From a virus: a stretch of DNA of 36,202 nucleotides. Below, one piece after another: positions 5,515 through 25,996 of the stretch; position 1 is the first letter of the stretch, and the number at the start of each line of letters is the position of its first letter. The DNA is taken from the IMG/VR virus record IMGVR_UViG_3300030102_004950, positions 1 to 36,202 of that record, one strand, 5' to 3'. The position numbers and the translations under genes were made by a program. The notes beneath the pieces are model-generated. The model was not told the origin of the DNA. It worked only from the letters and a program-made list of their open reading frames with translations, and did no database searches.

Positions 5515-7935
5515 TTATGCGCTCTCCAACGTTGTAATACGAGCCTCAAGCTCTTGTATGGTTTTTACAAGTAAAGGTACGAGTTTAGCTTGATCTATAG
5601 TTTGATAAACATCCCTGGTTAAAGAGGCAGTCCATGTAGAATCATTTTCGTATTGATCGGTTTCTTTACCTGCTATCCACTCAGCCTCAGTAACTCCTTC
5701 AGCCAACACAAGACCACCTGCTGTTCTTACTACATTTTCAAGTGTTTCAGTTGCATCTTTTGCGCCTGTAATTGCCTCGGGGACAATATCTTCAACTTCG
5801 TGAGCTAGGAAACCATCGACTGTTGTATCAGTTTCATCAAGTGTCCAGTTAAATCTTGCAGGTTTTAGTTGTTTTAATCTAGTTGTAGCATCCCAAGTAT
5901 AGTTTACATTTTCTTTAAGTCTGTAATCTGAGCTAGTGTTAAATGCTGTGCCTCCAGCACCACAAACTATACCACCAACTTGAGTGCTACCACCCGAAAT
6001 TGTAAAAGCAAAAATGTCATACGCACCTGTACCAGATTCATTATTAGTCGTTGCGCACAATCCTGCATTGTTAGACGACATATTCAAACATCTTGCCGCA
6101 CCCGTTCCCGCTGTTAATCTTAATCTATGAGTTGTATCGGGTGTACCTCCAATATTCATGTTACCACTTGAATTCATAGTAGCTGTTGCGCTACCACCTG
6201 TGGCTAAAACCAAGTTCAAGTTGTTTTGTGCGGCTACTTGACCAGCAGTATGTGTACTTCCGTTTCCTACATATCCTAGGGTCAAATTGTTTGAGCCAGA
6301 GAATCTTGATTCAAAAGTAAAATTAGTGGTGGCAGTGCCACTATTTTCGGTTAGTATTCCGCCTGCAATATTTACAGCAGTAGTCGAACTGCTGGTGGTG
6401 GTAGGACTTGCAATTCCAACACCTACATTACCATCTTCTTTTACTCTAAATAAAACATCCGTGTCATTAATTGCTGTTTTGTCCTTAGAAATTGTAAAAG
6501 TTTCTGTGGTAGCACCATCATCCGAATCAATATTTATTGAAAGAGAAGCAGGAACATTAATAATTCCATTATGTGTGCCATTATCGTCAAGTTCTAAAAT
6601 ACCATTGTTAGATGTAAGTTTTTGAGCAGTTAAAGCACCCCCAACATCTAGTGTTTGGGCTATATCGACATTTTGAGCGGAATCTATTGATATGGCTGAA
6701 TTTGTGCCAACAGTCGATCCTTCACCTATATCAAAATTTCCCGTAGAAACATCTAAACCTAAATAATAATCATTTGAGCTACCATCAAAAACAACTTTGG
6801 TATCAACCGCCGCACCGTCACCTATGGTTAAAGAATCGTCTGTGATTGTAAGAATATTGTTCGTACCAACAGTCGATCCTTCTCCAATCACTAATTTGTC
6901 TGCTGAATCATCATTAGCTATATAGAAGTCTTTAACGCCATTAAACTTAATTGCTACATCTTCCTCTCCACCGTCACCAAGAGTTAATGTTGGTGTAGTG
7001 CCTAAAAGTGACATGGTTTGTGCTGTGATATCGCCTGTAGTGGATGATGCCGCTTGGCCTACGCCGATTGATTCTGCAAATTTAATATCTAAATTTTCAT
7101 CTATTTCTATAGCGGGAGTGGTTCCAACCGCAGATCCTTTACCGATTACTAAATCGTCTGCTGAATCGTCTAGGCCTATGTAAAAGTCCTGGGCGTTACC
7201 GTCGAATACAATTTTTGTATCTTCCGCCCCAGCGTCTCCAATTGTAAGCGTTGGGGTTGTACCCACTAAAGTTAAACCGCCATGCAAAGTAGTTAAAAGA
7301 TTTTCATCAACAGCTATAGCTGGAGTTGTCCCTACAGCTGAACCTAAACCAATAAGAAGATCATCGGCAGAATCATCTAAGGCTATGTAATAATCTTGAG
7401 CATTACCATCAAAAACTATTTTAGTATCTTCTGCTCCAGCGTCGCCGATTGTTAGGGTTGGTGTGGAACCAGATATGGTAACTGAATCTGTTAAATTTAG
7501 ATCCGTTAGGGCCTCGACCATAGCACCGCCAGATCCAGCACCGTCTGAATAAATCGCTTTAACGTGGCTGTTTGGTACGGTAACGGTGGCCCCGGTTCCC
7601 TGTTTGATAATAATGTTGTAAGGCCCACTAGATCCGCTGTCTGTGGTAGCGTTTTCAATAAACCAAAGTTTAGAAACGGTGTTTGGTCCTATGGTAATCG
7701 TGCAATCAGAATCTAAAGCACCCGTGTATTTTAAAAATATAGATCTACCCGGATCAGTAGATCCATCTGCTATTGTTGTTGTGTGAGTGTTAGCATTAGT
7801 AGTAATGGCCTCCGTGCCAAAACTAAAAGCCTCTGCAATAAGCTCAAGGTTTGTGTTTGTCGATGTTCCCCAGGTTCCGGCCTCGTCACCTGTTGCTATC
7901 TCTTTGAGCCTTAAATCATTTACATAAGTTGCCAT
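5515..7935 (-). CDS. Tail fibre/spike with C-terminal S74 intramolecular chaperone
   Basis: 806 aa. An N-terminal part (1-150) with threonine-rich beta-strand sequence is followed by four tandem repeats of 55-85 residues (about 158-418), each with a [IL]GDxGxED...FDG...DDSADDL...GSAVGTTPAI-like core. A fibre shaft follows, and then a C-terminal peptidase S74 domain from about residue 669: SDYRLKENV, LKQLKPARFNW, DGFLAHEVEDIVPEAI and a final coiled coil KTIQELEARITTLES. S74 domains trimerise the fibre and are then cleaved off at the Ser-Asp near the domain start. Function: receptor-binding fibre or side spike. It lies next to another appendage gene and two genes away from a serine recombinase. 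Confidence 0.85.
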   Translation of the reverse strand: MATYVNDLRLKEIATGDEAGTWGTSTNTNLELIAEAFSFGTEAITTNANTHTTTIADGSTDPGRSIFLKYTGALDSDCTITIGPNTVSKLWFIENATTDSGSSGPYNIIIKQGTGATVTVPNSHVKAIYSDGAGSGGAMVEALTDLNLTDSVTISGSTPTLTIGDAGAEDTKIVFDGNAQDYYIALDDSADDLLIGLGSAVGTTPAIAVDENLLTTLHGGLTLVGTTPTLTIGDAGAEDTKIVFDGNAQDFYIGLDDSADDLVIGKGSAVGTTPAIEIDENLDIKFAESIGVGQAASSTTGDITAQTMSLLGTTPTLTLGDGGEEDVAIKFNGVKDFYIANDDSADKLVIGEGSTVGTNNILTITDDSLTIGDGAAVDTKVVFDGSSNDYYLGLDVSTGNFDIGEGSTVGTNSAISIDSAQNVDIAQTLDVGGALTAQKLTSNNGILELDDNGTHNGIINVPASLSINIDSDDGATTETFTISKDKTAINDTDVLFRVKEDGNVGVGIASPTTTSSSTTAVNIAGGILTENSGTATTNFTFESRFSGSNNLTLGYVGNGSTHTAGQVAAQNNLNLVLATGGSATATMNSSGNMNIGGTPDTTHRLRLTAGTGAARCLNMSSNNAGLCATTNNESGTGAYDIFAFTISGGSTQVGGIVCGAGGTAFNTSSDYRLKENVNYTWDATTRLKQLKPARFNWTLDETDTTVDGFLAHEVEDIVPEAITGAKDATETLENVVRTAGGLVLAEGVTEAEWIAGKETDQYENDSTWTASLTRDVYQTIDQAKLVPLLVKTIQELEARITTLESA
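6682..7464 (-). repeat. Four tandem protein-coding repeats in the tail fibre
   Basis: Repeats begin at about residues 158, 227, 313 and 371 of the fibre. Units 1 and 2 are almost identical in protein. Over a 35-codon stretch I compared by eye there are only two residue changes but more than 20 changed codons, so the DNA copies have drifted apart synonymously. Units 3 and 4 are more divergent. Confidence 0.8.
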
Positions 7936-10184: not shown

Positions 10185-10976
10185 TCAAACAGCTTGGTTT
10201 AAACCCTGGAACTTTCTGTTTAGGATCTTGTGAACCTTGTGATAAGGAAAGTCCTCATAGCCTGGGTGTAGGTTTTGCACCTGTTTTGCTATCCTTCTAG
10301 CACCTAGGCCACGCTCTTTACAGGCGTAAATCGTTTTTAGAACCTCTTGTTCTTCGGGTATGGGAACCAATTTAGTATGACGTTTGGCTCCGTGATCTTC
10401 GTATTCTTTTTTATAACCAAAAGGAACATGGCCACCGATTGAATAACCTTTTTCGGCCCAGGCAATCTTACCAGCTGATAATCTGGACTTAATCATGTCG
10501 CGCTCAAACTCTGCAAACTGGGCCAGAGTTGCCACCAGGTTACGGTTGTTAATCCTGGCCATGTCTAGTTTAGCCTCTAGGCCTGTGGATTCCTGGTCCT
10601 TCGGTAAGACCACCGGTATGTCACCAAACATTTCACAAAAGTAAAGTGTGATCCCTGTCTCTTCTAGCATCGGAATCATGTTGACCATTTCAACAAAGGA
10701 TCTGGCCAGCCTATCTAGTTTGGTCGTTACTATCACGTCATGCCTGTCCATGACGTCGGTTAGATCTCTGGATCCTGGTCGATCGACTAGATCCTTCATG
10801 CCACTAACGCCAGCGTCAATAAAGAATTTATCAACGGGCCTGTTGAACTTAGCCTGGACAAATTCTTCTATGGTTCTTTTTTGCTCGTCCAGGGAAGATC
10901 CATCTTTGACTTGTTGGTCCGAAGAAACTCGGACGTAGCCATAAATGTTATTGATTTGTTTGCGTGGTTTTATCAT
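10185..10976 (-). CDS. Serine recombinase (resolvase/invertase family)
   Basis: 263 aa. N-terminal resolvase domain: YGYVRVSSDQQ with the catalytic Ser at about 18, the SLDEQ motif, DAGVSGMKD, and TKLDRLARS with the conserved Arg residues (about 89 and 92). The E-helix region includes LVATLAQFAEFERDM. A short recombinase domain (GGHVPFGYKK, then EEQEVLKTIYACKERGLGARRIA and a helix-turn-helix end) binds DNA. It is shorter than large phage integrases (450-700 aa) and lacks their zinc-ribbon/coiled-coil region, so resolution or inversion fits better than classic serine integration. It joins the upstream unknown gene by an ATGA overlap and lies close to the tail-fibre genes. No att or inversion site was identified. 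Confidence 0.9.
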   Translation of the reverse strand: MIKPRKQINNIYGYVRVSSDQQVKDGSSLDEQKRTIEEFVQAKFNRPVDKFFIDAGVSGMKDLVDRPGSRDLTDVMDRHDVIVTTKLDRLARSFVEMVNMIPMLEETGITLYFCEMFGDIPVVLPKDQESTGLEAKLDMARINNRNLVATLAQFAEFERDMIKSRLSAGKIAWAEKGYSIGGHVPFGYKKEYEDHGAKRHTKLVPIPEEQEVLKTIYACKERGLGARRIAKQVQNLHPGYEDFPYHKVHKILNRKFQGLNQAV

Positions 10977-14295: not shown

Positions 14296-14883
14296 ATGAA
14301 GATCTATAAAATTAATTTTACTTTAGCAAAACTTTTTTACCAGGAGTTTCATAGAACCAATAAACCGCCCGTAGGTCATAAAGTAAGTTATGTTGGCCTA
14401 CTTGGCGATAAGTGGACTTTTCTAACTTATGCAGATTTTTTTGATCTTCCAGGTGACTGGGTAGAAGATCTTAATGACGATATTATGATTAGATCAAACG
14501 ATTCTGGGGATCCATGTATTTATACTAGAGGCAAAATTGTTGGCGTCTGCTCAATCGGCAGGCCCGTTGCCAGGTGGAAGGATCCTGCCGTCTATGAGAT
14601 TACAAGGATTTGTTTTAACTTTTGGCCTCAATCTAACAGAGAAAAAAAATACTTTAGCAAATTGATACGAGCGGCGATTGATGATTTCAAATCTTTACAT
14701 CCTGTTTCTAAGTTTGTGACTTACATTCACGAGAATCAAAGTGGACGTTATTTAGAATATGCTGGATTTAAAAAAGATAAGCATATTAGCTATTCAAAAA
14801 ATGATAAGGGTTGGGGATCTAGGAAAAATAGATCCAGCTCAGATCTATCGTCAAAATACAGATTTACAAGGGAGGTAGCTTGA
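14296..14883 (+). CDS. XF1762-type GNAT-fold acyltransferase-like protein
   Basis: 195 aa. It follows the pattern of the XF1762 family of phage/prophage proteins, a GNAT-related group compared by some with the Mu Mom fold: PPVGHKVSYVG (24-34), IVGVCSIGRPVAR (81-93), YEITRICF (100-107), a helix KLIRAAIDDF, FVTYIHENQSGRYLEYAGFK (140-159) and a basic C-terminus. A 40-residue acidic, aromatic insertion (about 37-78) separates the first two motifs. GNAT enzymes transfer acyl groups from acyl-CoA; the Mom protein modifies adenine in DNA. Substrate here is unknown, and a DNA-modifying role is speculative. The end overlaps the next start as TTGA. Confidence 0.7.
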   Translation: MKIYKINFTLAKLFYQEFHRTNKPPVGHKVSYVGLLGDKWTFLTYADFFDLPGDWVEDLNDDIMIRSNDSGDPCIYTRGKIVGVCSIGRPVARWKDPAVYEITRICFNFWPQSNREKKYFSKLIRAAIDDFKSLHPVSKFVTYIHENQSGRYLEYAGFKKDKHISYSKNDKGWGSRKNRSSSDLSSKYRFTREVA

Positions 14884-16076: not shown

Positions 16077-16252
16077 ATAAGAAAAGGCCTTACGAGGTGA
16101 AGGCTGTTTTATCAATAGACGATGCACCGAACATAACTCAAGATCAACTCTATCAAATTTTTTTTGAGGCCCTTAGAAACAAAAAGTTAAATCATTTCGA
16201 GATTACGGGTGGTGGTTTTCGTAGTGCTCCAGATCACTGGAGAAAAGACTAA
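16073..16252 (+). CDS. Small unknown protein, last gene of the rightward cluster
   Basis: 59 aa from the ATG at 16073 that overlaps the preceding stop (ATGA). KRPYEVKAVLSIDDAPNITQ, then a helix DQLYQIFFEALRNKKL and FEITGGGFRSAPDHWRKD, a beta-alpha-beta-like order. No family recognised. The stop overlaps by three bases the stop of the convergent gene on the minus strand, leaving no room for an intergenic terminator. Confidence 0.5.
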   Translation: MNKKRPYEVKAVLSIDDAPNITQDQLYQIFFEALRNKKLNHFEITGGGFRSAPDHWRKD

Positions 16253-17805
16253 AGAGATCCTATTCCCTGGTCCTGGCTATCTATCATTGCAGTTGCGCTG
16301 GCGGCCGCCGCTATTGGTGCCGCTGAAAAGAACTGATCTTTGAATTGTTGTCTGATTTTACCTTTGCCATAGTCTTTATCAATATCGTCAAATTTTTGTT
16401 TTATTACTTTAAGGCCTCTTTTTTCTAGGATATCAATAACCTCTTGGCTGGTTGCCTCTGGAACGATGGCCCCAGCAAATTCATCAAAACCAACAGATCT
16501 AATAGGTTTGGCCTCGAAGTATTCCACGGGCCGCATAGCGTTTAGTCTAAGAGACGTGGCTATTTCGCTTGCCGCCTTTTCTAAACTTTTGGCACCAGAT
16601 CTTCCGTCTGCATAAAAGTCTAAAGCATTTTCCACTATAGATTCGATGGTGTCGTCACCCATTTTTAAGCCTTCACCGATATTGTTTATAATATCCCCAG
16701 TGTTTCCACTTAATTCTGGATCCACATCTTCCAGGATTTGTTGGATATCATCAAACAGATCGAAAACCTCATCATCTTTAGCAAGCATTTCTTTTCTGTT
16801 TTTTATGTCGGCCAAACTTTCAAATCTTTCGGACATAAGCGCCCTTAGTCTGTTGGACCCGAACATACCTAAACCGCCCTCTCCACCTCTTTGAGTGTCT
16901 TGAACCATGTTTTCAACTACATTGTCTAGGGTGTAAGGTTTTACAGTTGTATCAAAAGGATCAATAGCAAATCCAGTGTCTTTGTCAATCCTGCCAGCAA
17001 TAAAAACACCGTCCTGGCTTAAATATTTGTCTTTTTCTTTATTTAACCATTGTTGAAATTTTCTCGATGATGTTACTTTATCCTGGCCTGTATCTTTTAA
17101 ATATGCCCTTTTCAAATATTCGGGTGCAATTTGTGAGTCAAAGGTAAGTTCTATAATTTCTGATTTATCTATAACGCTGGAACCTATATCTTTATTTTCT
17201 AAACTTCTGAGTGTTCCTGCTAATTTTTCATCCCCATATTTTTCTAAATATTTATCAGCCGCTCCTGGCTTTGCTAGGCGTAATTTTTTCGGGGCCCTGG
17301 GTGTGTAAGCATCGGCAGAGTAAATTTTGTTCCTGGGATCCACTAGAGGATCGAATTTTTCGGGTTTACCAATCAACTGTATATTTCCAAAACCAGTGAA
17401 GGGTTGATCGCCTTTCATAACTGCAATACTTGGTGACGGGATTCCGTCCATGTTGTCAAAACTTTTAATTGCCTCTTCGGAGGTGTTGTGCACAAAAACC
17501 AGGTCTTTCGGATCCGCCTCTTTGGCTACTGCGGCGATACCTTTACCAGCCGCTACCACAGGTTTTACTGCGCCTAGTCCAGATAACGCATAGTCCACGG
17601 GAGTTTCTACTGCAAATAGGGATCCTATTCCGCGGCCCACCTTTTGTAATTTCCGTATCACTGGATCGGAGCTGAACTGCGATTTTTGCATTTCTAACAC
17701 TTCCGCGGGACTCAAAGGTGCCGCTATGGCCCCAGGGCCAGCCGCCAAGATATCTTTTGGACTTGGTGCTTGGTAATCGAAGATGTTGACCTTGTCTAGC
17801 TCCAT
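16249..17805 (-). CDS. Polyvalent/effector-type protein, possibly virion-associated
   Basis: 518 aa. The N-terminal 100 residues are Ala/Gly-rich with weak hydrophobic patches, and the C-terminus ends in another (PIAAAASATAMIDS). Residues about 102-172 carry LVFVHNTSEEAI, IPSPSIAVMK, TGFGNIQLIG and IYSADAYTPRAP. I recognise this pattern from domains inside very large phage and mobile-element 'polyvalent' proteins, which often accompany ADP-ribosyltransferase or peptidase effectors. The remainder is helical and acidic with no known motif. The ATG lies six bases after a TATACT -10, so it may have its own leaderless transcript. Enzymatic function is not shown. It could be an ejected anti-host protein, like the 452-aa protein at 8789. 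Confidence 0.5.
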   Translation of the reverse strand: MELDKVNIFDYQAPSPKDILAAGPGAIAAPLSPAEVLEMQKSQFSSDPVIRKLQKVGRGIGSLFAVETPVDYALSGLGAVKPVVAAGKGIAAVAKEADPKDLVFVHNTSEEAIKSFDNMDGIPSPSIAVMKGDQPFTGFGNIQLIGKPEKFDPLVDPRNKIYSADAYTPRAPKKLRLAKPGAADKYLEKYGDEKLAGTLRSLENKDIGSSVIDKSEIIELTFDSQIAPEYLKRAYLKDTGQDKVTSSRKFQQWLNKEKDKYLSQDGVFIAGRIDKDTGFAIDPFDTTVKPYTLDNVVENMVQDTQRGGEGGLGMFGSNRLRALMSERFESLADIKNRKEMLAKDDEVFDLFDDIQQILEDVDPELSGNTGDIINNIGEGLKMGDDTIESIVENALDFYADGRSGAKSLEKAASEIATSLRLNAMRPVEYFEAKPIRSVGFDEFAGAIVPEATSQEVIDILEKRGLKVIKQKFDDIDKDYGKGKIRQQFKDQFFSAAPIAAAASATAMIDSQDQGIGSL

Positions 17806-17811
17806 TGAGCT

Positions 17812-17841
17812 AGTATATCAATGAAAAGCGGGACCCGTAAA
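17812..17841 (-). promoter_or_regulatory. Candidate promoter giving a leaderless transcript
   Basis: Minus strand TTTACG (17836-17841), 18-base spacer, TATACT (17812-17817), then six bases and the ATG of the 518-aa gene. No ribosome site precedes that ATG. The elements lie inside the end of the oxygenase gene. Confidence 0.45.
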
Positions 17842-18369
17842 CCAAACAACCAGGACAAAACGGTCGCCTTTGGTGATTGGATTGACTTTATGCGGTAAAA
17901 ACGAGCTGAAAGCGACAACATCGCCCACATTTGGCCGCGTGCAACTACCGACTTCGCCGGTCCTAAAGCAAAATTCGCCGCCTTCGTATTCATCATTTAG
18001 TAGTATAGATGCGCTTATCTTGCGATTTGCGGCCTCTTCGGGCCCTAAGTCGATGTGATACTCATACCCGTTACTCGGAGCCTTATAATGGATGATTTGT
18101 GCGGTTTCTATGCCAGAAATGGCGTAATTAAAGTATTTATTGACCGTGTTGCCGACTTTGTTGAGGATCTTATAGATCCTTTCGGCTTGGTGGTCGATAA
18201 AATAGACGTCGGCATCGCGTGTGGACTTCTCTTCGGTTTGTTCGTTGTTCTTATGAACCAGGCCGGATGTCGGCGTTTGGTCGGTAATGTAGTCCATGAA
18301 AACCGCGACTTCGTCGGGGCCTACTGAGCAACCGGTGACTCCGTGCCGCGGATCCGGTTTCTGGGCCAT
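17818..18369 (-). CDS. 2OG-Fe(II) oxygenase, prolyl-hydroxylase-like
   Basis: 183 aa. The double-stranded beta-helix motifs are complete: H105-x-D107 in YEYHIDLG, a distal His160 in FLPHKV, and Arg170 in GDRFVLVVWF that would bind 2-oxoglutarate. The EGGEFCF and GDVVAFSS stretches are typical of the P4H-like branch. Such enzymes hydroxylate protein or other substrates using Fe(II), O2 and 2-oxoglutarate; phage versions are common in marine viruses, with unknown targets. It lies two bases downstream of the PD-(D/E)XK nuclease gene and 12 bases before the 518-aa gene, all minus strand. It is one of three unrelated-looking 2OG oxygenases in the window. Confidence 0.85.
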   Translation of the reverse strand: MAQKPDPRHGVTGCSVGPDEVAVFMDYITDQTPTSGLVHKNNEQTEEKSTRDADVYFIDHQAERIYKILNKVGNTVNKYFNYAISGIETAQIIHYKAPSNGYEYHIDLGPEEAANRKISASILLNDEYEGGEFCFRTGEVGSCTRPNVGDVVAFSSFLPHKVNPITKGDRFVLVVWFTGPAFH

Positions 18370-19140: not shown

Positions 19141-19644
19141 CTACTTATCCTTTGGTGAGTAAGTTGAGGTTTCAGCACCGAGTAATTGACCCAGGCGCTC
19201 CTTGATTTGATCCTTGCTCATCTTCTCAAGGTTGGCATTGATGTTTATATTCTGGGATCTATTTATTGATAAACCGCCGAGCTGATTCAGTTCTTTAATA
19301 GCAGATACAGCCGCATTAAATTGGCCAGATTCGTATGCAGTTTCCATAATCTTCCACAACATTGTTCCGGTCTTTTGTGGTGTGATCGCGTACTTTTCTG
19401 CCAGCTCATCTTGCTTAACTCTTATGGCCCGAACCACATTCGGATGATGTTTACCAGATAACAATTTGTTTGCCGAGACAGCAGGGAATTCATAACCAGC
19501 TTTTCTGGCCGCCTCAGTTTGTCCACATGCTCCTTCGGTGTAATGCCAAACGAATGACGCTTGCATTTCAGTCAACCCAAACTCTTCATCTTTCTCAAAT
19601 TGAACCGGTGTTGTTACGACTTTATCCTTTGGTTTCTTCGGCAT
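19141..19644 (-). CDS. terS: Terminase small subunit
   Basis: 167 aa. FGLTEMQASFVWHYTEG, QTEAARKAGYEFPAVSANK and a following VVRAIRVKQDELAEKYAI segment match the Terminase_2-type small subunit: an N-terminal helix-turn-helix that recognises the phage packaging site, then helical oligomerisation region. It forms a ring that brings the DNA to the large terminase motor. The large subunit normally follows directly, but here the next gene downstream is a nuclease after 347 bases. The ATG at 19642-19644 has a GGAATAAC upstream and lies one base after the previous stop. A Ser/Thr/Lys-rich C-terminus (STYSPKDK) is usual for contact with the large subunit. Confidence 0.8.
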   Translation of the reverse strand: MPKKPKDKVVTTPVQFEKDEEFGLTEMQASFVWHYTEGACGQTEAARKAGYEFPAVSANKLLSGKHHPNVVRAIRVKQDELAEKYAITPQKTGTMLWKIMETAYESGQFNAAVSAIKELNQLGGLSINRSQNININANLEKMSKDQIKERLGQLLGAETSTYSPKDK

Positions 19645-19645
19645 G

Positions 19646-19816
19646 TTATTCCTCTACAAATGCTATGTATTCATTGTCGTCTATCTTGAGTATTGCAATC
19701 AAGTCCTGGCCCTTATATTTTCTGGCCACACCTGTAAATGATTTTGCCTGGACGACATCGGTTTTGATTTCATGTTCACCGTAGCTCATAACCAGTTTGA
19801 TTTGTTTTAGATCCAT
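19646..19816 (-). CDS. Small protein upstream of terS, unknown
   Basis: 56 aa. MDLKQIKLVMSYGEHEIKTD, then VVQAKSFTGVARKYKGQDL and a short strand end. Predicted beta-rich with a basic middle. No clear ribosome site precedes either ATG (first or Met10), so the start is uncertain. It ends one base before terS, which argues that it is real and co-expressed. Confidence 0.45.
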   Translation of the reverse strand: MDLKQIKLVMSYGEHEIKTDVVQAKSFTGVARKYKGQDLIAILKIDDNEYIAFVEE

Positions 19817-20046
19817 ATTGATATTGTAAACAGGGTAGAGTAGGTAGTGTATAGCCTCTCAACACTTTCTATAATGCAACCCTTATAAACCCCCTTTTAT
19901 TGCGTTTATAACCGTATAATTAATATTATTATATATAAGTATATACCTAACACTACCTATAGGAATAAACTGCATAAGTAAGCCAAAAACAGACAGGGTA
20001 CAGCTATTTTTACTATACACTGTATGCCACCCTATTCTTGCCTAAG
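19817..20046. other. Origin-like AT-rich region with inverted and direct repeats
   Basis: TAGGTAGTGT (19841-19850) has its exact reverse complement at 19950-19959. AGTGTATAG (19846-19854) has its reverse complement at 20013-20021. ACAGGGTA occurs at 19830-19837 and 19993-20000, and CCTATAGG (19956-19963) is a palindrome. Between them lies an almost pure A/T tract (about 19914-19946). Iteron-like sites around an AT-rich core next to a primase-helicase gene and terS fit a replication origin or a regulatory hub. It could instead be only the promoter region of the terS unit. Confidence 0.45.
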
Positions 20047-20268
20047 TTATACATTCTTATCCTTTTGTGCATCTTTATCTACATCAACAGACAGTGTACC
20101 TTCACTGCTTTTTAGCCTTGCCAACCTAGCCTCATGCGCTTTTAATTTTATCGTGTAACTCTTTGGTATATTTTTTTTCCGTCTATCGCCGAATATTCTT
20201 TCATGGTTCTGCTTATACTCTTGCGAGTAAACTCCTGGCCGAGGTCTGTCGCCCTTTCCTGTCATCAT
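20047..20268 (-). CDS. Small phage protein with GKGDRPRP/ERIFG motif
   Basis: 73 aa. It begins TGKGDRPRPGVYSQEY, followed by NHERIFGDRRKKN and a basic helix (KLKAHEARLARLKSS). Many phages carry a short protein with the pattern GKGDxxRP...Y..N...IFG close to replication genes; the role is unknown. Two Met codons start the frame at 20263-20268, the first overlapping the previous stop and preceded by AAGGAG. Last gene of the primase unit on the minus strand before the origin-like region. Confidence 0.6.
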   Translation of the reverse strand: MMTGKGDRPRPGVYSQEYKQNHERIFGDRRKKNIPKSYTIKLKAHEARLARLKSSEGTLSVDVDKDAQKDKNV

Positions 20269-20450
20269 CCATTCTCCTTCTTTTGCGGATTGATAAGCTC
20301 AAAGTAGAACCGCTTGTCTCTAATTGCCTCCGACACAATCTCCATCAATTCATCTGTCGAGGTCTTGTCATTAAATACATCCTCATCGGTCATAATGCAG
20401 AGTTTCATCACCTGTCGGTGTTTGTACTTCATCTTCGATGACTTACTCAA
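20265..20450 (-). CDS. Small helical protein, unknown
   Basis: 61 aa, MSKSSKMKYKHRQVMKLCIM (basic) followed by an acidic helix (DELMEIVSEAIRDKRFYF). It overlaps the end of the primase-helicase gene by four bases and the next gene by four. No family recognised. Possibly a helicase partner by position. Confidence 0.5.
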   Translation of the reverse strand: MSKSSKMKYKHRQVMKLCIMTDEDVFNDKTSTDELMEIVSEAIRDKRFYFELINPQKKENG

Positions 20451-22624
20451 AACTTACTCCCGTAATCTATGCCATCATCTTCGATGGCCTTGTAATCAAT
20501 GTCATAGACTTTCTTGCCGTTTGTTCTCCGCGCCTCAATGCCCTTTTCGTGTAAGACACGACTGGCCTCTTTGAAGTCTGGCATCCTAGGCGCTTTGATA
20601 CCCAGGTCACGCAATAGCTTTGTCATTTGCACAGGCTCAGTGTGTTCAGACTCGAAGTCGACGTGCTCCAGGAGCAGATCCTCAACGCTCGACTGGGTGC
20701 GGTAGATCTCATTACTCTCTTGCAAGAGCTCACGCTCATCCGGTGAGAGAAACCAATTCTTTTGTCCTGGCACATACATCGTCTCCTTTACTTGGGCCCA
20801 GAGCTGTTGCATGTCTACGCCATGATTGACGTCAATATCCTTAACTGCGAGTACCCAGAATCTTCGATTACCCGACGTGTCCGTCAAGAATTCTCTCGCA
20901 TTAACACTCGCATAAAAGGCAGTACGCCTTTGATAAGTGGTAAAGGCTCGATCATACGGCAGTCTTAGCTCATCGGTCTTAGCCGTAACAAAGGCTTTCA
21001 GTTGGTCAATGTCCGATTTTTTAAACGTCGACTCGATCTCTCCGAGTTCAACGATCCAGTGACTCACCGCGCGCTTAACACTGTCTTTGTCAGACGGATT
21101 GAGAGTAGCACCTTCCAACAGCCAGCCGTTGTCATAGTTACATAGACGTTTGAACCACAATGTTTTACCTAGGCCCTGTGCGCCCTGGAGGACGAGGATC
21201 CCTTCGAGTTCAACGCCATTGACTTCATACGCGGCGGCCACACAACTTATCAGCCACTTCTTCATTAGCATTTCTTTTAACTGGTTTGACTCATGTGTAA
21301 CCAATGAGTCCAGGAATGTCTGCAATCTATCATTGCCGTCCCAGGGTTCGCTGTCGATCCACTCTTTAACAGGATTGTATTCTTTGGCTAACACCTTGAG
21401 GTAGTCTCTAACCTTAGTGTGCGGGATCCCCATGTTGATGCACCGATCTTCGATCTCAATGAGGCTCGCCTCCTCTTTCATGTCAGCGATGAAGTTCATG
21501 TTCGGGATCTCAATCTCCATACGCTTTTTGATTACGTTATAGCGCACATCCACCTCATGTGTTTTCAACACCCCATTAATATTATCCTTGGTGTTTAGAA
21601 ATCTACCGCTTGCATTGCGCTGAAAGTCATACTCGACAGGTAGATCCAGTTTTCTGAGCGCGGGGATAACTTCGCCTTCAACGTGTTCGACCTCTTCGAG
21701 TTCATTCTTGTGATCGTTGTAGTCGCCTTTAGTCTCTGGCATAAGCACTTCTGCTTGGCCCTTATTCTTACGAATATATTGACAAGCCTTAGTCGCCTCC
21801 TTCTCACCTGTTTGACTGTCGTCATTATCGGCGACGAATACATGCTTGCGGTCAGCGAAAAACTCGAACATGACCTCTGCGACCGGCGTTAAGTTATATG
21901 CGTCAAACGCCACGATGACTGGCTGTGAGTAGTCAGCGTATATAGATGCCGCTGTGGCATATCCTTCGGCATAGTTAAGGATGTCTGAGCTTTTGAGGAT
22001 CTCCGATCCAAGAATAAAAAAGCTACCGCTTTTTTTAGAACCAGTAAGAAAACGTTTGCCACCATGCTCATCAATGTACTGGATACCCACGATCGTCATT
22101 TGCTTGTCGTACAGCGGAATCATTAAGTTATTGTGCTCGTCCATTCTAAGGCCATAGGAGAGGACTTTCTTGTTTTCTAAGTAAGGGTGTTTCTCACACG
22201 GTGTGGCTTTCTCCCAGAGGCTCTGAGCGCGTTTGGCAGAGCGTGAATACTTCTCGGCCTGTTTGACCTCCGCCTGTCTTTGGAGTTCAGCGATCTCTTC
22301 TTTTTGTTTCTTGGTTATCCTTCTGCGTTGTGAGTTCTCGGGTTTCCAGATAGCAGTAGGCTGGTCAGCTGAAACGCGATAGTCACCCAATCGGCCAAAC
22401 GGCACAGATTGATCGGTCCACAGTTGATACCAACCTACTAACTTTCGTTGACCGCCTACGTTAATGTAAGCCCGACCAATAGACCCGTCGGCGATCAAAC
22501 CCTTTTTAGGGTCCGGTTCTAAACCATGTTCGGCCAGGAATTGACCAAACTGGTGTAGGTAATCAGTAGTAAATGGCGTGTTAAAATTCTTTGGTTTGCT
22601 GGGTCGGGTTATCTTTAGTGTCAC
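20447..22624 (-). CDS. Primase-helicase: Toprim domain plus VapE-type P-loop domain
   Basis: 725 aa. The N-terminal part (1-160) may bind DNA or nucleotide; it contains GRAYINVGGQRKLVGWYQL and a Lys/Gln-rich linker. A Toprim domain follows (about 195-300) with the catalytic Glu in YAEGYATAASIY (218-229) and the Asp cluster VADNDD (264-269). The C-terminal VapE/D5-like helicase domain has Walker A GAQGLGKT (481-488), Walker B HWIVELGEIE (522-531), SVNAREFL (573-580) and GNRRFWVL (585-592). Role: primes and unwinds DNA at the phage fork or origin. The ATG is 94 bases from the divergent SSB-like gene. VapE-type proteins are common in phages and phage-inducible elements. Confidence 0.85.
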   Translation of the reverse strand: MTLKITRPSKPKNFNTPFTTDYLHQFGQFLAEHGLEPDPKKGLIADGSIGRAYINVGGQRKLVGWYQLWTDQSVPFGRLGDYRVSADQPTAIWKPENSQRRRITKKQKEEIAELQRQAEVKQAEKYSRSAKRAQSLWEKATPCEKHPYLENKKVLSYGLRMDEHNNLMIPLYDKQMTIVGIQYIDEHGGKRFLTGSKKSGSFFILGSEILKSSDILNYAEGYATAASIYADYSQPVIVAFDAYNLTPVAEVMFEFFADRKHVFVADNDDSQTGEKEATKACQYIRKNKGQAEVLMPETKGDYNDHKNELEEVEHVEGEVIPALRKLDLPVEYDFQRNASGRFLNTKDNINGVLKTHEVDVRYNVIKKRMEIEIPNMNFIADMKEEASLIEIEDRCINMGIPHTKVRDYLKVLAKEYNPVKEWIDSEPWDGNDRLQTFLDSLVTHESNQLKEMLMKKWLISCVAAAYEVNGVELEGILVLQGAQGLGKTLWFKRLCNYDNGWLLEGATLNPSDKDSVKRAVSHWIVELGEIESTFKKSDIDQLKAFVTAKTDELRLPYDRAFTTYQRRTAFYASVNAREFLTDTSGNRRFWVLAVKDIDVNHGVDMQQLWAQVKETMYVPGQKNWFLSPDERELLQESNEIYRTQSSVEDLLLEHVDFESEHTEPVQMTKLLRDLGIKAPRMPDFKEASRVLHEKGIEARRTNGKKVYDIDYKAIEDDGIDYGSKF

Positions 22625-23519: not shown

Positions 23520-23810
23520 ATGCAAGAACAAGACCCAATAAATCCTAGTCATTACAAAGAAGGCGATGTCGAATGTATTGAGGCTATTAAGTCCTCATTA
23601 GATACCAACGCTTTTCATGGCTATCTCAAAGCATCGGTTATGAAATACTTGTGGAGGTATGACAAAAAGGACAACCCTGCATTGTGTTTAGGTAAAGCGC
23701 AGTGGTTTATGAATAGATTAGTTAATGAACATAATCAGAGTGTGGAAGATGATCTATGGACCATGGCTCAAGTAGAGGCCGACGCCGAAAGCAAACCAGT
23801 AGAGTTTTGA
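23520..23810 (+). CDS. DUF3310-family protein (SaV-like)
   Basis: 96 aa. DPINPSHYKEGDVECIEAI and GYLKASVMKYLWRYDKKDN with a closing KAQWFMNRLVNE are the DUF3310 pattern, common in phages and often annotated as a nucleotide-kinase-like or SaV-like protein. Function is not established; association with nucleotide metabolism is usual. AGGAG stands 6 bases before the ATG. Its TGA overlaps the TTG start of the oxygenase gene. Confidence 0.85.
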   Translation: MQEQDPINPSHYKEGDVECIEAIKSSLDTNAFHGYLKASVMKYLWRYDKKDNPALCLGKAQWFMNRLVNEHNQSVEDDLWTMAQVEADAESKPVEF

Positions 23811-24523
23811 CCGACATTCATTACAACGTTTTTTCTCTGCCAGCGGCACTCATGGTCGAACATAATATGTCAGAAGAAATGGTTTCAGATCTAAATACTT
23901 TTTTAGATAGGCTCAGAGAAAACAAAAACAAAGAATCTGCTGGCGATAAATTGATTGGCCAAATACATAATGGTGAACAATTAACCATAGATTTCACATT
24001 ACCAGAAATACTTGAATTCAGAACCGTGGTTGAAAATCTAGGTGTGAGCTACCTTAGACACTTTGTTGAATTTACTAAATCACAGATCCACCCGAAAAGA
24101 GTTGAAATGGATCAGTTGTGGTCAGTGCATAGTTTTGAAGGTGACTACAATCCAATACACGATCATTTAACCAAATCGCCTATGGGTATATCATTTACTT
24201 GTTGGACCAAGATACCGGATCAAATCAGTAAACCAGGAGAAGAAGAAAAATTACATTATGATTTATATAACAGTTCTGGTGCTATTGATGGCTTTATTAA
24301 TTTCACTTATGGCTTGAACCAAACTGGAGACCCAGAACGTTTACGGCCATCGCAATCAAGATACATAAAACCCGAGGTTGGTAAACTTCTTATGTTTCCA
24401 TCCTGGATGCAACATTGCGTATATCCTTTCTTTGGACCAGGAGAACGACGCACCGTTGCTGGTAATCTTAATTGTTTTAACTTAACACCCGAACAAATAC
24501 AGGAGGCTCAGAATGGAGTTTGA
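23807..24523 (+). CDS. 2OG-Fe(II) oxygenase-like protein, TTG start
   Basis: 238 aa from a TTG at 23807 that overlaps the previous stop (TTGA); an upstream ATG in the same frame lies inside the DUF3310 gene and is less likely. Begins IHYNVFSLPAALMVEH. The oxygenase signature is SVHSFEGDYNPIHDHLTK (iron ligands His118 and Asp119/His120 region), KLLMFPSWMQHCVYPF (distal His203) and the Arg pair at 214-215 in ERRTVAGN. This fits the branch of putative 2OG-Fe(II) oxygenases common in marine viruses, distinct from the P4H-like protein at 17818. Substrate unknown. The start of the exonuclease gene overlaps its end by 11 bases. Confidence 0.75.
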   Translation: MTDIHYNVFSLPAALMVEHNMSEEMVSDLNTFLDRLRENKNKESAGDKLIGQIHNGEQLTIDFTLPEILEFRTVVENLGVSYLRHFVEFTKSQIHPKRVEMDQLWSVHSFEGDYNPIHDHLTKSPMGISFTCWTKIPDQISKPGEEEKLHYDLYNSSGAIDGFINFTYGLNQTGDPERLRPSQSRYIKPEVGKLLMFPSWMQHCVYPFFGPGERRTVAGNLNCFNLTPEQIQEAQNGV

Positions 24524-25286
24524 AATAGGAATATACGACGATTTAACTTACGAAGAGTATGCAAGCATACCAGCTTATAGATCTCACGATCTAACCTCGG
24601 CCATAAAATGTCCGTACAGCTGGAAAAATGCAAAGCCAATGCAACAGACTCCAGCGTTGCTGGAAGGTCGAGTACAACACACCGTGTTCCTGGAATATCA
24701 TAAGTTCGATGATGAGTTCGTAATTCAACCCCAGATTGATCGTAGAACAAAAGCAGGTAAAGAAATGTGGGAAGATTTCCAGGGAACCGTCGGCAATCGC
24801 ACGGTCATTAGCCAGGATCTATTTGATCTTTGTATGGAGCGCAGACGTATCATTCGAGATTACATCCCTAGACCCGAACACAAAGTAGAAAGGTCCTTGG
24901 TGTTTATGTGGCACGATCAACAGTTTAAATGCAGAATGGACTGGTACGACGGTAAAGATGTTTGGGATCTTAAAACATGCCGTGACGCATCACCCAGAGG
25001 TTTCAAACAAGCGATTAATAATTTTAAATATCACATGCAGGCCGCTTTATATTTGGATGCTTGTAAGGCCTTAGATCTACCAGCGGATAAGTTTAACTTC
25101 CTGGCTCAAGCAAAGACAGATCCATATCCTTATGCGGTTTACTCTATGTCCACCGAGGCTATCGGATATGCAAGGGCCAAGAACGAACAGGCCCTAGCCA
25201 TGATATTAGAATGTGAAAAGTCTGGTAAATTTACACCGTTTAATTTAGATGGCCCGCAAACCGTGGAGCTTGGTGATCTTTACTAA
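24513..25286 (+). CDS. RecE/exonuclease VIII-like PD-(D/E)XK exonuclease
   Basis: 257 aa. LTYEEYASIPAYRSHDLTSA, then LEGRVQHTVFLE with His56, Glu126 in the KVERSL stretch, RMDWYDGKDVWDLKT giving Asp143 and the D152-x-K154 pair, and YHMQAALYLDA with Gln176 and Tyr180: the order of PDDEXK exonucleases related to the C-terminal domain of RecE. These digest one strand 5'-3' to give 3' overhangs for annealing or recombination, usually beside an SSB or annealing protein. An SSB-like gene is upstream; no RecT or Erf is evident. It ends 4 bases inside a convergent gene. Confidence 0.85.
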   Translation: MEFEIGIYDDLTYEEYASIPAYRSHDLTSAIKCPYSWKNAKPMQQTPALLEGRVQHTVFLEYHKFDDEFVIQPQIDRRTKAGKEMWEDFQGTVGNRTVISQDLFDLCMERRRIIRDYIPRPEHKVERSLVFMWHDQQFKCRMDWYDGKDVWDLKTCRDASPRGFKQAINNFKYHMQAALYLDACKALDLPADKFNFLAQAKTDPYPYAVYSMSTEAIGYARAKNEQALAMILECEKSGKFTPFNLDGPQTVELGDLY

Positions 25287-25996
25287 AAAAGATCTTGATA
25301 CAAATTAAATATTCGGTTTTTGTTACATAACCAAAAGACTAATAAATATCTATCGCCAGATCCTACTGGCAAGCCTTTATGTAAATGCGTAAAGCTGGGA
25401 AAGATTAAGGCGTGGCCTGTTGGCAAAGGTTTGATGGCCCCGTGATTATGAAACTCGGTTCCACCGCCCTCATAATCTCCTGTGTTTAAAGGAACCACAA
25501 CACTAATATCTGCGCTTTCGTCGTGGTGCCAGGCTCCTTGTTTCTTATCTTTGAGGTTGTAGTTTGCTATTTGTATGCTTGCTGGATCCCCACAACTCCT
25601 TTGCCAAATCGCCATAAAGATTGGATTCAACACTGTTTGGGCCACAAACCACATGTTGCGATAAAGGTCTGGACATTGTTGTTGTAATACGATCTCTGGG
25701 ATCTGCCGCAAAGTATCTTCATCTTTATTCCCTTCGAACCCTATCTCTTTTCGCATGCTCTCAATCTCTTTGACCAAGAGCTTACAAAACTGTCTGCGGA
25801 ATAACGGTATTTTATAAACGTCTGGATATATTTTTTTGGCCATACGATGCACTGGTGTCTTTGCCATCTTTTCTGTTCCAGCATCGGCATGATACTTGGC
25901 TACAATCGGCACCGTTTCTTGAATCGCATCATAAGTCGCCTGGTTAATCATCCAGTGAGATTGCATGCTTAAAAGGTAGTTTTTTAGCTTATACAT
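25283..25996 (-). CDS. 2OG-Fe(II) oxygenase, third copy
   Basis: 237 aa. A helical N-terminal half (1-135) is followed by the oxygenase core: QGAWHHDESADISVVVPL (His157-x-Asp159), EGGGTEFHNHG, LPTGHALIFPSFTHLHKG with His206, and GDRYLLVFWL with Arg216. The GxxTxF and THLHKG patterns match viral prolyl-hydroxylase-like proteins. No ribosome site is visible before the ATG at 25994-25996; a -10-like TAAAAT lies about 11 bases upstream on the minus strand. It stands alone on this strand, between a convergent exonuclease and a divergent regulator, which suggests independent acquisition or control. Confidence 0.8.
   Translation of the reverse strand: MYKLKNYLLSMQSHWMINQATYDAIQETVPIVAKYHADAGTEKMAKTPVHRMAKKIYPDVYKIPLFRRQFCKLLVKEIESMRKEIGFEGNKDEDTLRQIPEIVLQQQCPDLYRNMWFVAQTVLNPIFMAIWQRSCGDPASIQIANYNLKDKKQGAWHHDESADISVVVPLNTGDYEGGGTEFHNHGAIKPLPTGHALIFPSFTHLHKGLPVGSGDRYLLVFWLCNKNRIFNLYQDLF

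Follow-up and report, generated by a model that had tools for sequence, protein, structure and literature searches.

The window, by which we mean the whole stretch of DNA analysed here, is a linear virus record of 36,202 bases. Its minus strand carries, in this order, a primase-helicase gene, two small ORFs, a gap (19818-20046), a 56-aa ORF, terS and the gene for a RusA-like resolvase (Table 1). According to the ORF map the gap holds no gene, a GTG-started 45-aa ORF inside it (19883-20020) not being counted as one. The helicase region of the primase-helicase matches PDB chain 7pds_A ('Similar to D. nodosus vapE') at 1.9e-23, and tRNA and Rfam searches returned no matches. For one structural protein the best matches among cultured phages are aquatic ones (e.g. 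Pelagibacter and Roseobacter phages) at 30-37% identity, the best cultured primase matches are less than 40% identical, and no cultured TerS match was found. A search of genome contigs with two peptide patterns from the primase profile yielded no prophage relatives, and no close relative of this phage group, cultured or prophage, was found. The large terminase subunit was sought with phrog_2, which matched none of 12 records (G000-G011) though 11 of 14 control genomes were positive; TerL of these phages may be divergent, belong to another family or lie outside the records.

The interval between primase and terS is an insertion hot spot for genes in relatives, measuring 344 to 2250 bp. Beyond terS, a PBECR5 nuclease-like domain (16249-17805, minus strand; PF18814, 8.9e-23) is matched next to terS and rusA in some of the relatives but not in all. 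The phage has three separate genes of the 2OG-Fe(II) oxygenase type, at 17818-18369, 23756-24523 and 25283-25996, and among the relatives in long records the first is found in six of six and the third in five of six. The recombinase-like protein encoded at 10185-10976 (minus strand) matches phrog_95 (integrase, 6.2e-41) and phrog_125 (DNA invertase, 1.2e-30); its gene, about 2 kb from a tail-fibre gene (5515-7935), has counterparts at 73-76% in five of six long relatives, and the protein could be a fibre-switching invertase. There is also a weak match to a Mom-like DNA modification protein (14296-14883, plus strand; phrog_1384, 4.4e-08).

Table 1. Features at and around the gap, in window coordinates.
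Feature	Position	Strand	Evidence or remark
Putative replication origin: non-coding block, iteron arms and A/T core	19818-20046		Between minus-strand ORFs; block conserved in relatives
Primase-helicase (Toprim_3 and VapE-like domain), proposed initiator	20447-22624	-	Pfam PF05272 1.1e-52, PF13362 9.8e-10; phrog_2249 1.3e-97
C-terminal winged helix, residues about 646-711, proposed iteron reader	20492-20689	-	AlphaFold, pLDDT about 90; co-variation in cultured phages
73-aa ORF	20047-20268	-	ORF map; stop borders gap
56-aa ORF separating block from terS, without family match	19646-19816	-	ATG borders gap
terS (terminase small subunit), second gene from the block, outside the origin	19141-19644	-	PF03592 3.2e-06; phrog_51 2.1e-10
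Degenerate iteron AGGGTAGAG, terS-side arm	19832-19840	+	One mismatch to AGKGTAYAG; read off sequence
Iteron AGTGTATAG, exact, terS-side arm	19846-19854	+	Motif scan
A/T core, candidate unwinding element	19905-19944		Least stable 40-mer of the window, nearest-neighbour energies
Iteron AGGGTACAG, exact, primase-side arm, faces next copy 18 bp away	19995-20003	+	Motif scan
Iteron AGTGTATAG, exact, primase-side arm	20013-20021	-	Motif scan

Repeats and A/T core in the window

The first-pass annotation had described inverted repeats, a direct repeat and a palindrome around an A/T core in the gap, and had likened the arrangement to an origin. Recomputed from the sequence, the repeats are where they were said to be: inverted pairs of 10 bp (19841-19850 / 19950-19959) and 9 bp (19846-19854 / 20013-20021), to which an 8-bp pair (19883-19890 / 19904-19911) can be joined, a direct repeat ACAGGGTA at 19830 and 19993, and, read off the sequence, an imperfect palindrome ATACAcTGTAT near 20015-20025, all in a 230-base piece of 33% G+C. 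In 2000 dinucleotide shuffles of these 230 bases, however, an inverted arm of at least 10 arose in 9.7%, the observed inverted-repeat combination in 4.5% and an 8-base direct repeat in 67%, and an arm of at least 10 also occurs in 3.8% of 1564 real pieces of the same length cut from the record. Because of these frequencies the repeats as first described are unconvincing alone, and the 10-bp pair is kept as a pair in none of seven aligned relatives. It is comparison with relatives that makes the repeats significant and redefines their unit, the functional repeat probably being AGKGTAYAG and not the quoted pairs.

Exact AGKGTAYAG occurs three times in the whole window, always within 19846-20021, on both strands and around the core; three sites anywhere are reached in 5 of 100 shuffles. 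With up to one mismatch the block holds four sites, against two in the runner-up 420-base stretches, counting those that include at most part of the block. In an unbiased k-mer scan other repeats outrank the iterons in the window and in most uncultured records, because the iterons of this group are degenerate; it takes the motif derived from the relatives to make the block conspicuous.

The A/T core ranks first in the window for low stability with 40-mers and with 60-mers, and outside the first four with 80-mers. Across seven records it holds the least stable 40-mer in four and the second in three, ranks between first and third with 60-mers and falls lower with 80-mers. GC skew, which the first-pass annotation had put forward as a check, proved uninformative: it follows the coding strand almost monotonically and has no turning point at the block. 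One further candidate, a hairpin beside the core (TTATAAAC / GTTTATAA) that seemed to covary by eye, was rejected, its stems being no longer than those of shuffles in 46 representative sequences.

Conservation of the block in uncultured relatives

Protein searches found a related primase at 252 viral loci, the best 80 of which are 78-99% identical. Among these 80, 67 have both primase and terS matches and gave 46 representatives including the window; the other 13 were excluded from the densities below. Alignment of the gaps reveals a conserved block that comprises, in order on the terS strand, AGGGTATAG-like sites in direct orientation, often at a spacing of 12 bp, an inverted copy 18 bp further, an A/T core with GTGTATA repeats and, ahead of terS, inverted copies 7 or 14 bp apart. 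The facing arrangement with a spacing of 18 was seen 21 times among the 46 representatives.

The first-pass annotation had tied its reading to conservation of the repeats in relatives, and the AGKGTAYAG unit is strongly conserved. In the 45 distinct relatives, 420-base stretches covering the block contain 155 exact sites in 18.6 kb (8.3 per kb), against 27 in 359 kb outside it (0.075 per kb), a density about 110 times higher, whereas the reversed pattern is flat (1 in the block, 15 outside). At least two exact sites are present in 37 of the 45; with one mismatch allowed the block has a median of six and a minimum of one, compared with 0.22 on average and three at most in 806 random stretches. 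Exact sites number 58 in the 12 longer records, where the reversed control gives 8, and are concentrated in a single main cluster per record, which in G002 and G007 consists of two sites only; isolated copies lie outside the main cluster in eight of the 12.

The same group is recovered without any gene bias. When the tandem arm alone was used as a DNA pattern against 2.9 million viral contigs, 75 loci were found, and at every one of them a primase or a terS of this group was matched. Upstream, a primase match is present in 66 and ends 127-2143 bp before the array, a wide range because other genes have been inserted. Downstream, a terS match is present in 73 and starts 208-405 bp after the first base of the array, and at the other two loci the available DNA ends within 360 bp; so narrow a distance made a packaging site a serious rival, to which we return below. 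With a second, looser pattern 62 stretches were found; of the 27 loci that were new, 11 belong to this group and 16 have none of the eight query genes, some chance matches being expected of a pattern this loose. In four of the 11 (L241, L250, L256 and L261) the small terminase subunit is only 64-66% identical, and in L241 and L256, whose sequences were read, small genes lie between the block and terS and the block is kept. The closeness to terS remarked on in the first-pass annotation thus holds in this group but is not general, as these two loci and the cultured phages, with terS about 2 kb away, make clear.

L256 has a second, partial iteron-like set (590-660) slightly more than 100 bp ahead of its main array. 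Four other viral records (L240:4814-4840, L244:12761-12787, L262:11730-11756 and L264:3756-3782), in which neither primase nor terS of this group is matched, share an identical inverted pair AGGGTATAG...CTATACCCT that is perhaps a conserved operator of unrelated prophages.

Iteron arrays and primase C-termini in cultured phages

Among 60 matches listed, we examined 14 cultured phages, including FoX1, with primases 32-39% identical to that of the window; duplicate records, the FoX1-like phages M29, Murka, FoX2, FoX3 and FoX5, phages below 30% identity, ET-SD-TH (without annotation) and other partial matches were left out. The gaps were delimited manually with the annotation as guide, following an unannotated ORF in ep3; two small annotated ORFs overlap the array of Alexa, and for PT1 only the DNA downstream of two annotated primase ORFs was used. 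After the primase gene, 11 of the 14 have clear arrays of other iterons, two have weak arrays and one has none. Eight phages (ep3, Bas97, Arya, KA2-1, Mica, Alux-21, PT1 and ECOO78) carry 8-13 copies of GGTGAC before a gene for a Mor-like late activator, ECO1230-10 has 11 copies of GGGAC, Persinger 10 of TGACCA and Alexa six of GTGCAA. The weak arrays are those of PPpW-3 (four GGGAC) and Mano (three AGTGTA), and a k-mer scan of FoX1 found no 8-mer array, only weak 7-mers of 4-5 copies elsewhere. In an unbiased repeat scan the gap ranked first in eight of ten genome pieces (the whole genome in the case of Alexa and KA2-1), the exceptions being PPpW-3 and Mano. All ten scanned phages have copies in both orientations, and in nine, ep3 being the exception, these copies flank or surround the 40-mer of the gap that is richest in A/T. 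Where both are seen in a cultured phage, terS is about 2 kb beyond the array, with lysis genes between.

These phages indicate which protein is likely to read the iterons. In the GGTGAC phages ep3, Bas97, KA2-1 and Arya the primase C-termini are 84-98% identical and the rest of the protein 79-98%. Mica, which has the same iterons, resembles these four at 37-40% in the rest of the primase and at 53-57% in the C-terminus, whereas ECO1230-10, with other iterons, is 84-86% identical to ep3, Bas97 and KA2-1 in the rest and 66-70% in the C-terminus. The pair ep3 (eight GGTGAC, no GGGAC) and ECO1230-10 (no GGTGAC, 11 GGGAC) is 97.7% identical in TerS, 92% in Mor, 96.6% in ParB and 66% in the winged helix, a contrast that amounts to a single evolutionary event. 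In ep3 and KA2-1, which share their iterons, Mor is 59% identical and ParB 50%. Partial Mantel tests on ten phages associate the iterons with the primase C-terminus (r 0.72, P 0.0036) and not with the rest of the primase (P 0.75) or with Mor (P 0.94). With Alux-21, PT1 and ECOO78, near-duplicates of ep3 that were added as a check after the result had been seen, the 13 phages give r 0.80 and P 0.0008 for the C-terminus, with P of 0.87 for the rest of the primase and 0.96 for Mor. FoX1 was kept outside these tests because it has no array, and the P values are optimistic because several of the phages are near-duplicates and not independent.

Not every pair follows the trend. Persinger and PPpW-3 are 70% identical in the C-terminus (77-78% in the rest), Mica and ECO1230-10 51%, and in both pairs the iterons differ; Alexa and Mano, at 57-58%, have no repeated 6-mer in common. 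ECO1230-10 and PPpW-3 both have GGGAC repeats with C-termini only 49% identical, and share the stretch ARKSGSxRLF, which is probably the wing of the winged helix.

In the window protein this C-terminal domain is predicted to run helix-strand-helix-helix-strand-strand, that is, as a winged helix, in an AlphaFold model of the domain alone (pLDDT about 90), which was used since the full-length model is poor (mean pLDDT 40.7). Foldseek returned no match for the domain at E 0.001. The best VIA matches among those listed are AsfvPrimPol C-terminal domains, whose Z of 6.8 is barely above that of unrelated winged helices. One of these, 8iqi_A (rmsd 3.1 over 71 aligned residues), is likewise a winged helix that ends a primase-helicase, but it is 8% identical to the window domain, and the tool itself cautions that similarity scored below Z 8 may reflect no more than a common arrangement. 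Among the structural matches listed there is no domain of SaPI Rep or P4 alpha, which excludes nothing. The window C-terminus is 19-27% identical to those of the cultured phages, and the rest of the protein 30-37%. Co-variation was measured in the cultured phages, and in the uncultured group the iterons change little; there, we infer that AGKGTAYAG is read by the phage's own primase-helicase. The VapE-type protein that the first-pass annotation had named as a possible binder is backed in this role by the co-variation of iterons and C-terminal winged helix in its cultured relatives.

A candidate origin and its rivals

Taken with the clustering of a conserved motif, the unstable core and the predicted winged helix, all of them computed, the co-variation of arrays and winged helices leads us to consider 19818-20046 a candidate origin, and the origin-like reading of the first-pass annotation gains support from the same observations. 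From sequence, we think it probable that the block is an iteron-type origin like those of P4 and the SaPIs, with the primase-helicase of the phage itself as its reader. At such an origin, the C-terminal winged helix would bind AGKGTAYAG on both arms, hexamers would assemble on the two arms, and the A/T core would then melt; the primase-helicase would itself unwind the DNA and prime it for a polymerase, replication starting at the block.

The repeats might instead be operators, bound by a phage regulator of the late operon that starts at the block, and position is in keeping with this: the block is directly upstream of the terS operon here, and a Mor-like late activator gene is directly downstream of the array in 12 of the 13 cultured phages that have one, Mano having another gene between. 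We nevertheless regard a regulatory region as unlikely, given that the iterons do not track Mor in either set of phages and that ep3 and ECO1230-10, in spite of their similar Mor proteins, have different iterons. Since these two phages also have the same sequence just ahead of the Mor gene, the array is separable from the Mor promoter region. Moreover, promoter-like matches in 19600-20300 amount to one, on the other strand, against a shuffle mean of 2.2. The primase-helicase itself could repress or control late genes through the same sites.

It is still harder to see in the block a cos or pac site bound by the small terminase subunit, a reading to which we give very little credence. The narrow range of distances to terS at 73 of 75 loci speaks for it, but L241 and L256 keep the block despite TerS proteins only 64-65% identical and the small genes between, ep3 and ECO1230-10 differ in iterons with nearly the same TerS, and in cultured phages terS is far from the array. 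Where contigs end less than 1 kb from the array (14 left and 12 right over 75 loci), the ends are scattered. Partition by a ParB-like protein, genes for which occur in several cultured phages, is scarcely credible, as ParB is nearly the same in ep3 and ECO1230-10, which differ in iterons, and only half identical in ep3 and KA2-1, which share them, and Alexa has no annotated ParB gene. An origin dependent on host DnaA seems similarly remote: the complement of the iteron agrees with the DnaA box consensus at up to 7 of 9 positions, but an exact-box scan led us to reject DnaA boxes, TTWTNCACA being absent from the window block and from the blocks of 63 of 68 loci (present in five), and the iterons of the cultured phages are unlike the box.

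An iteron origin next to its helicase gene has precedents in satellites. PICI origins are described as two iteron sets flanking an AT-rich region (PMC6092414), and SaPI origins as lying directly downstream of the rep gene and being bound by the C-terminal domain of Rep (PMC7581432). The pri-rep-ori modules so described resemble the present locus, the iteron arms here flanking an A/T core, the block lying downstream of the proposed initiator helicase gene, with two small ORFs between in the window, and the same reader being proposed here from co-variation. They differ in that the putative origin here belongs to a tailed-phage genome, has packaging genes adjacent and uses another iteron sequence. 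Primase and helicase are here in one protein, as is reported for SaPI5 Rep (PMC7581432). Phage P4 alpha protein combines primase, helicase and origin recognition in one protein, to go by the title of a paper in EMBO J (1993), but P4 is a satellite, unlike this phage, and the likeness is one of description. Also comparable are the Jilinvirus-type phages ep3, ECO1230-10, Arya and KA2-1 together with Alexa, Mica and Persinger, in which an array follows the primase cluster as it does here, although their iterons are GGTGAC, GGGAC, TGACCA or AGTGCAAC in place of AGKGTAYAG and the next gene encodes a Mor-like activator where the window has the terS operon. No paper on this origin was among the literature matches listed, subscription papers being mostly outside the reach of the search. 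The use of an iteron origin by full phages from several genera, with iteron class and winged helix changing together, may be the new element.

These results assign a putative origin and a likely reader to a phage group whose records, as far as seen here, all derive from metagenomes. They also indicate that the layout is shared, with other iterons, by cultured phages of E. coli and Klebsiella, which bring the proposal within reach of laboratory tests, ep3 and ECO1230-10 being a natural swap pair. We suggest, tentatively and with the odds slightly against it, that the winged helix and the iteron array act together as an exchangeable origin code in tailed phages whose primase-helicases are P4/SaPI-like; members of a genus would switch class by replacing these two parts only, and iteron classes would amount to replication compatibility groups of phages.
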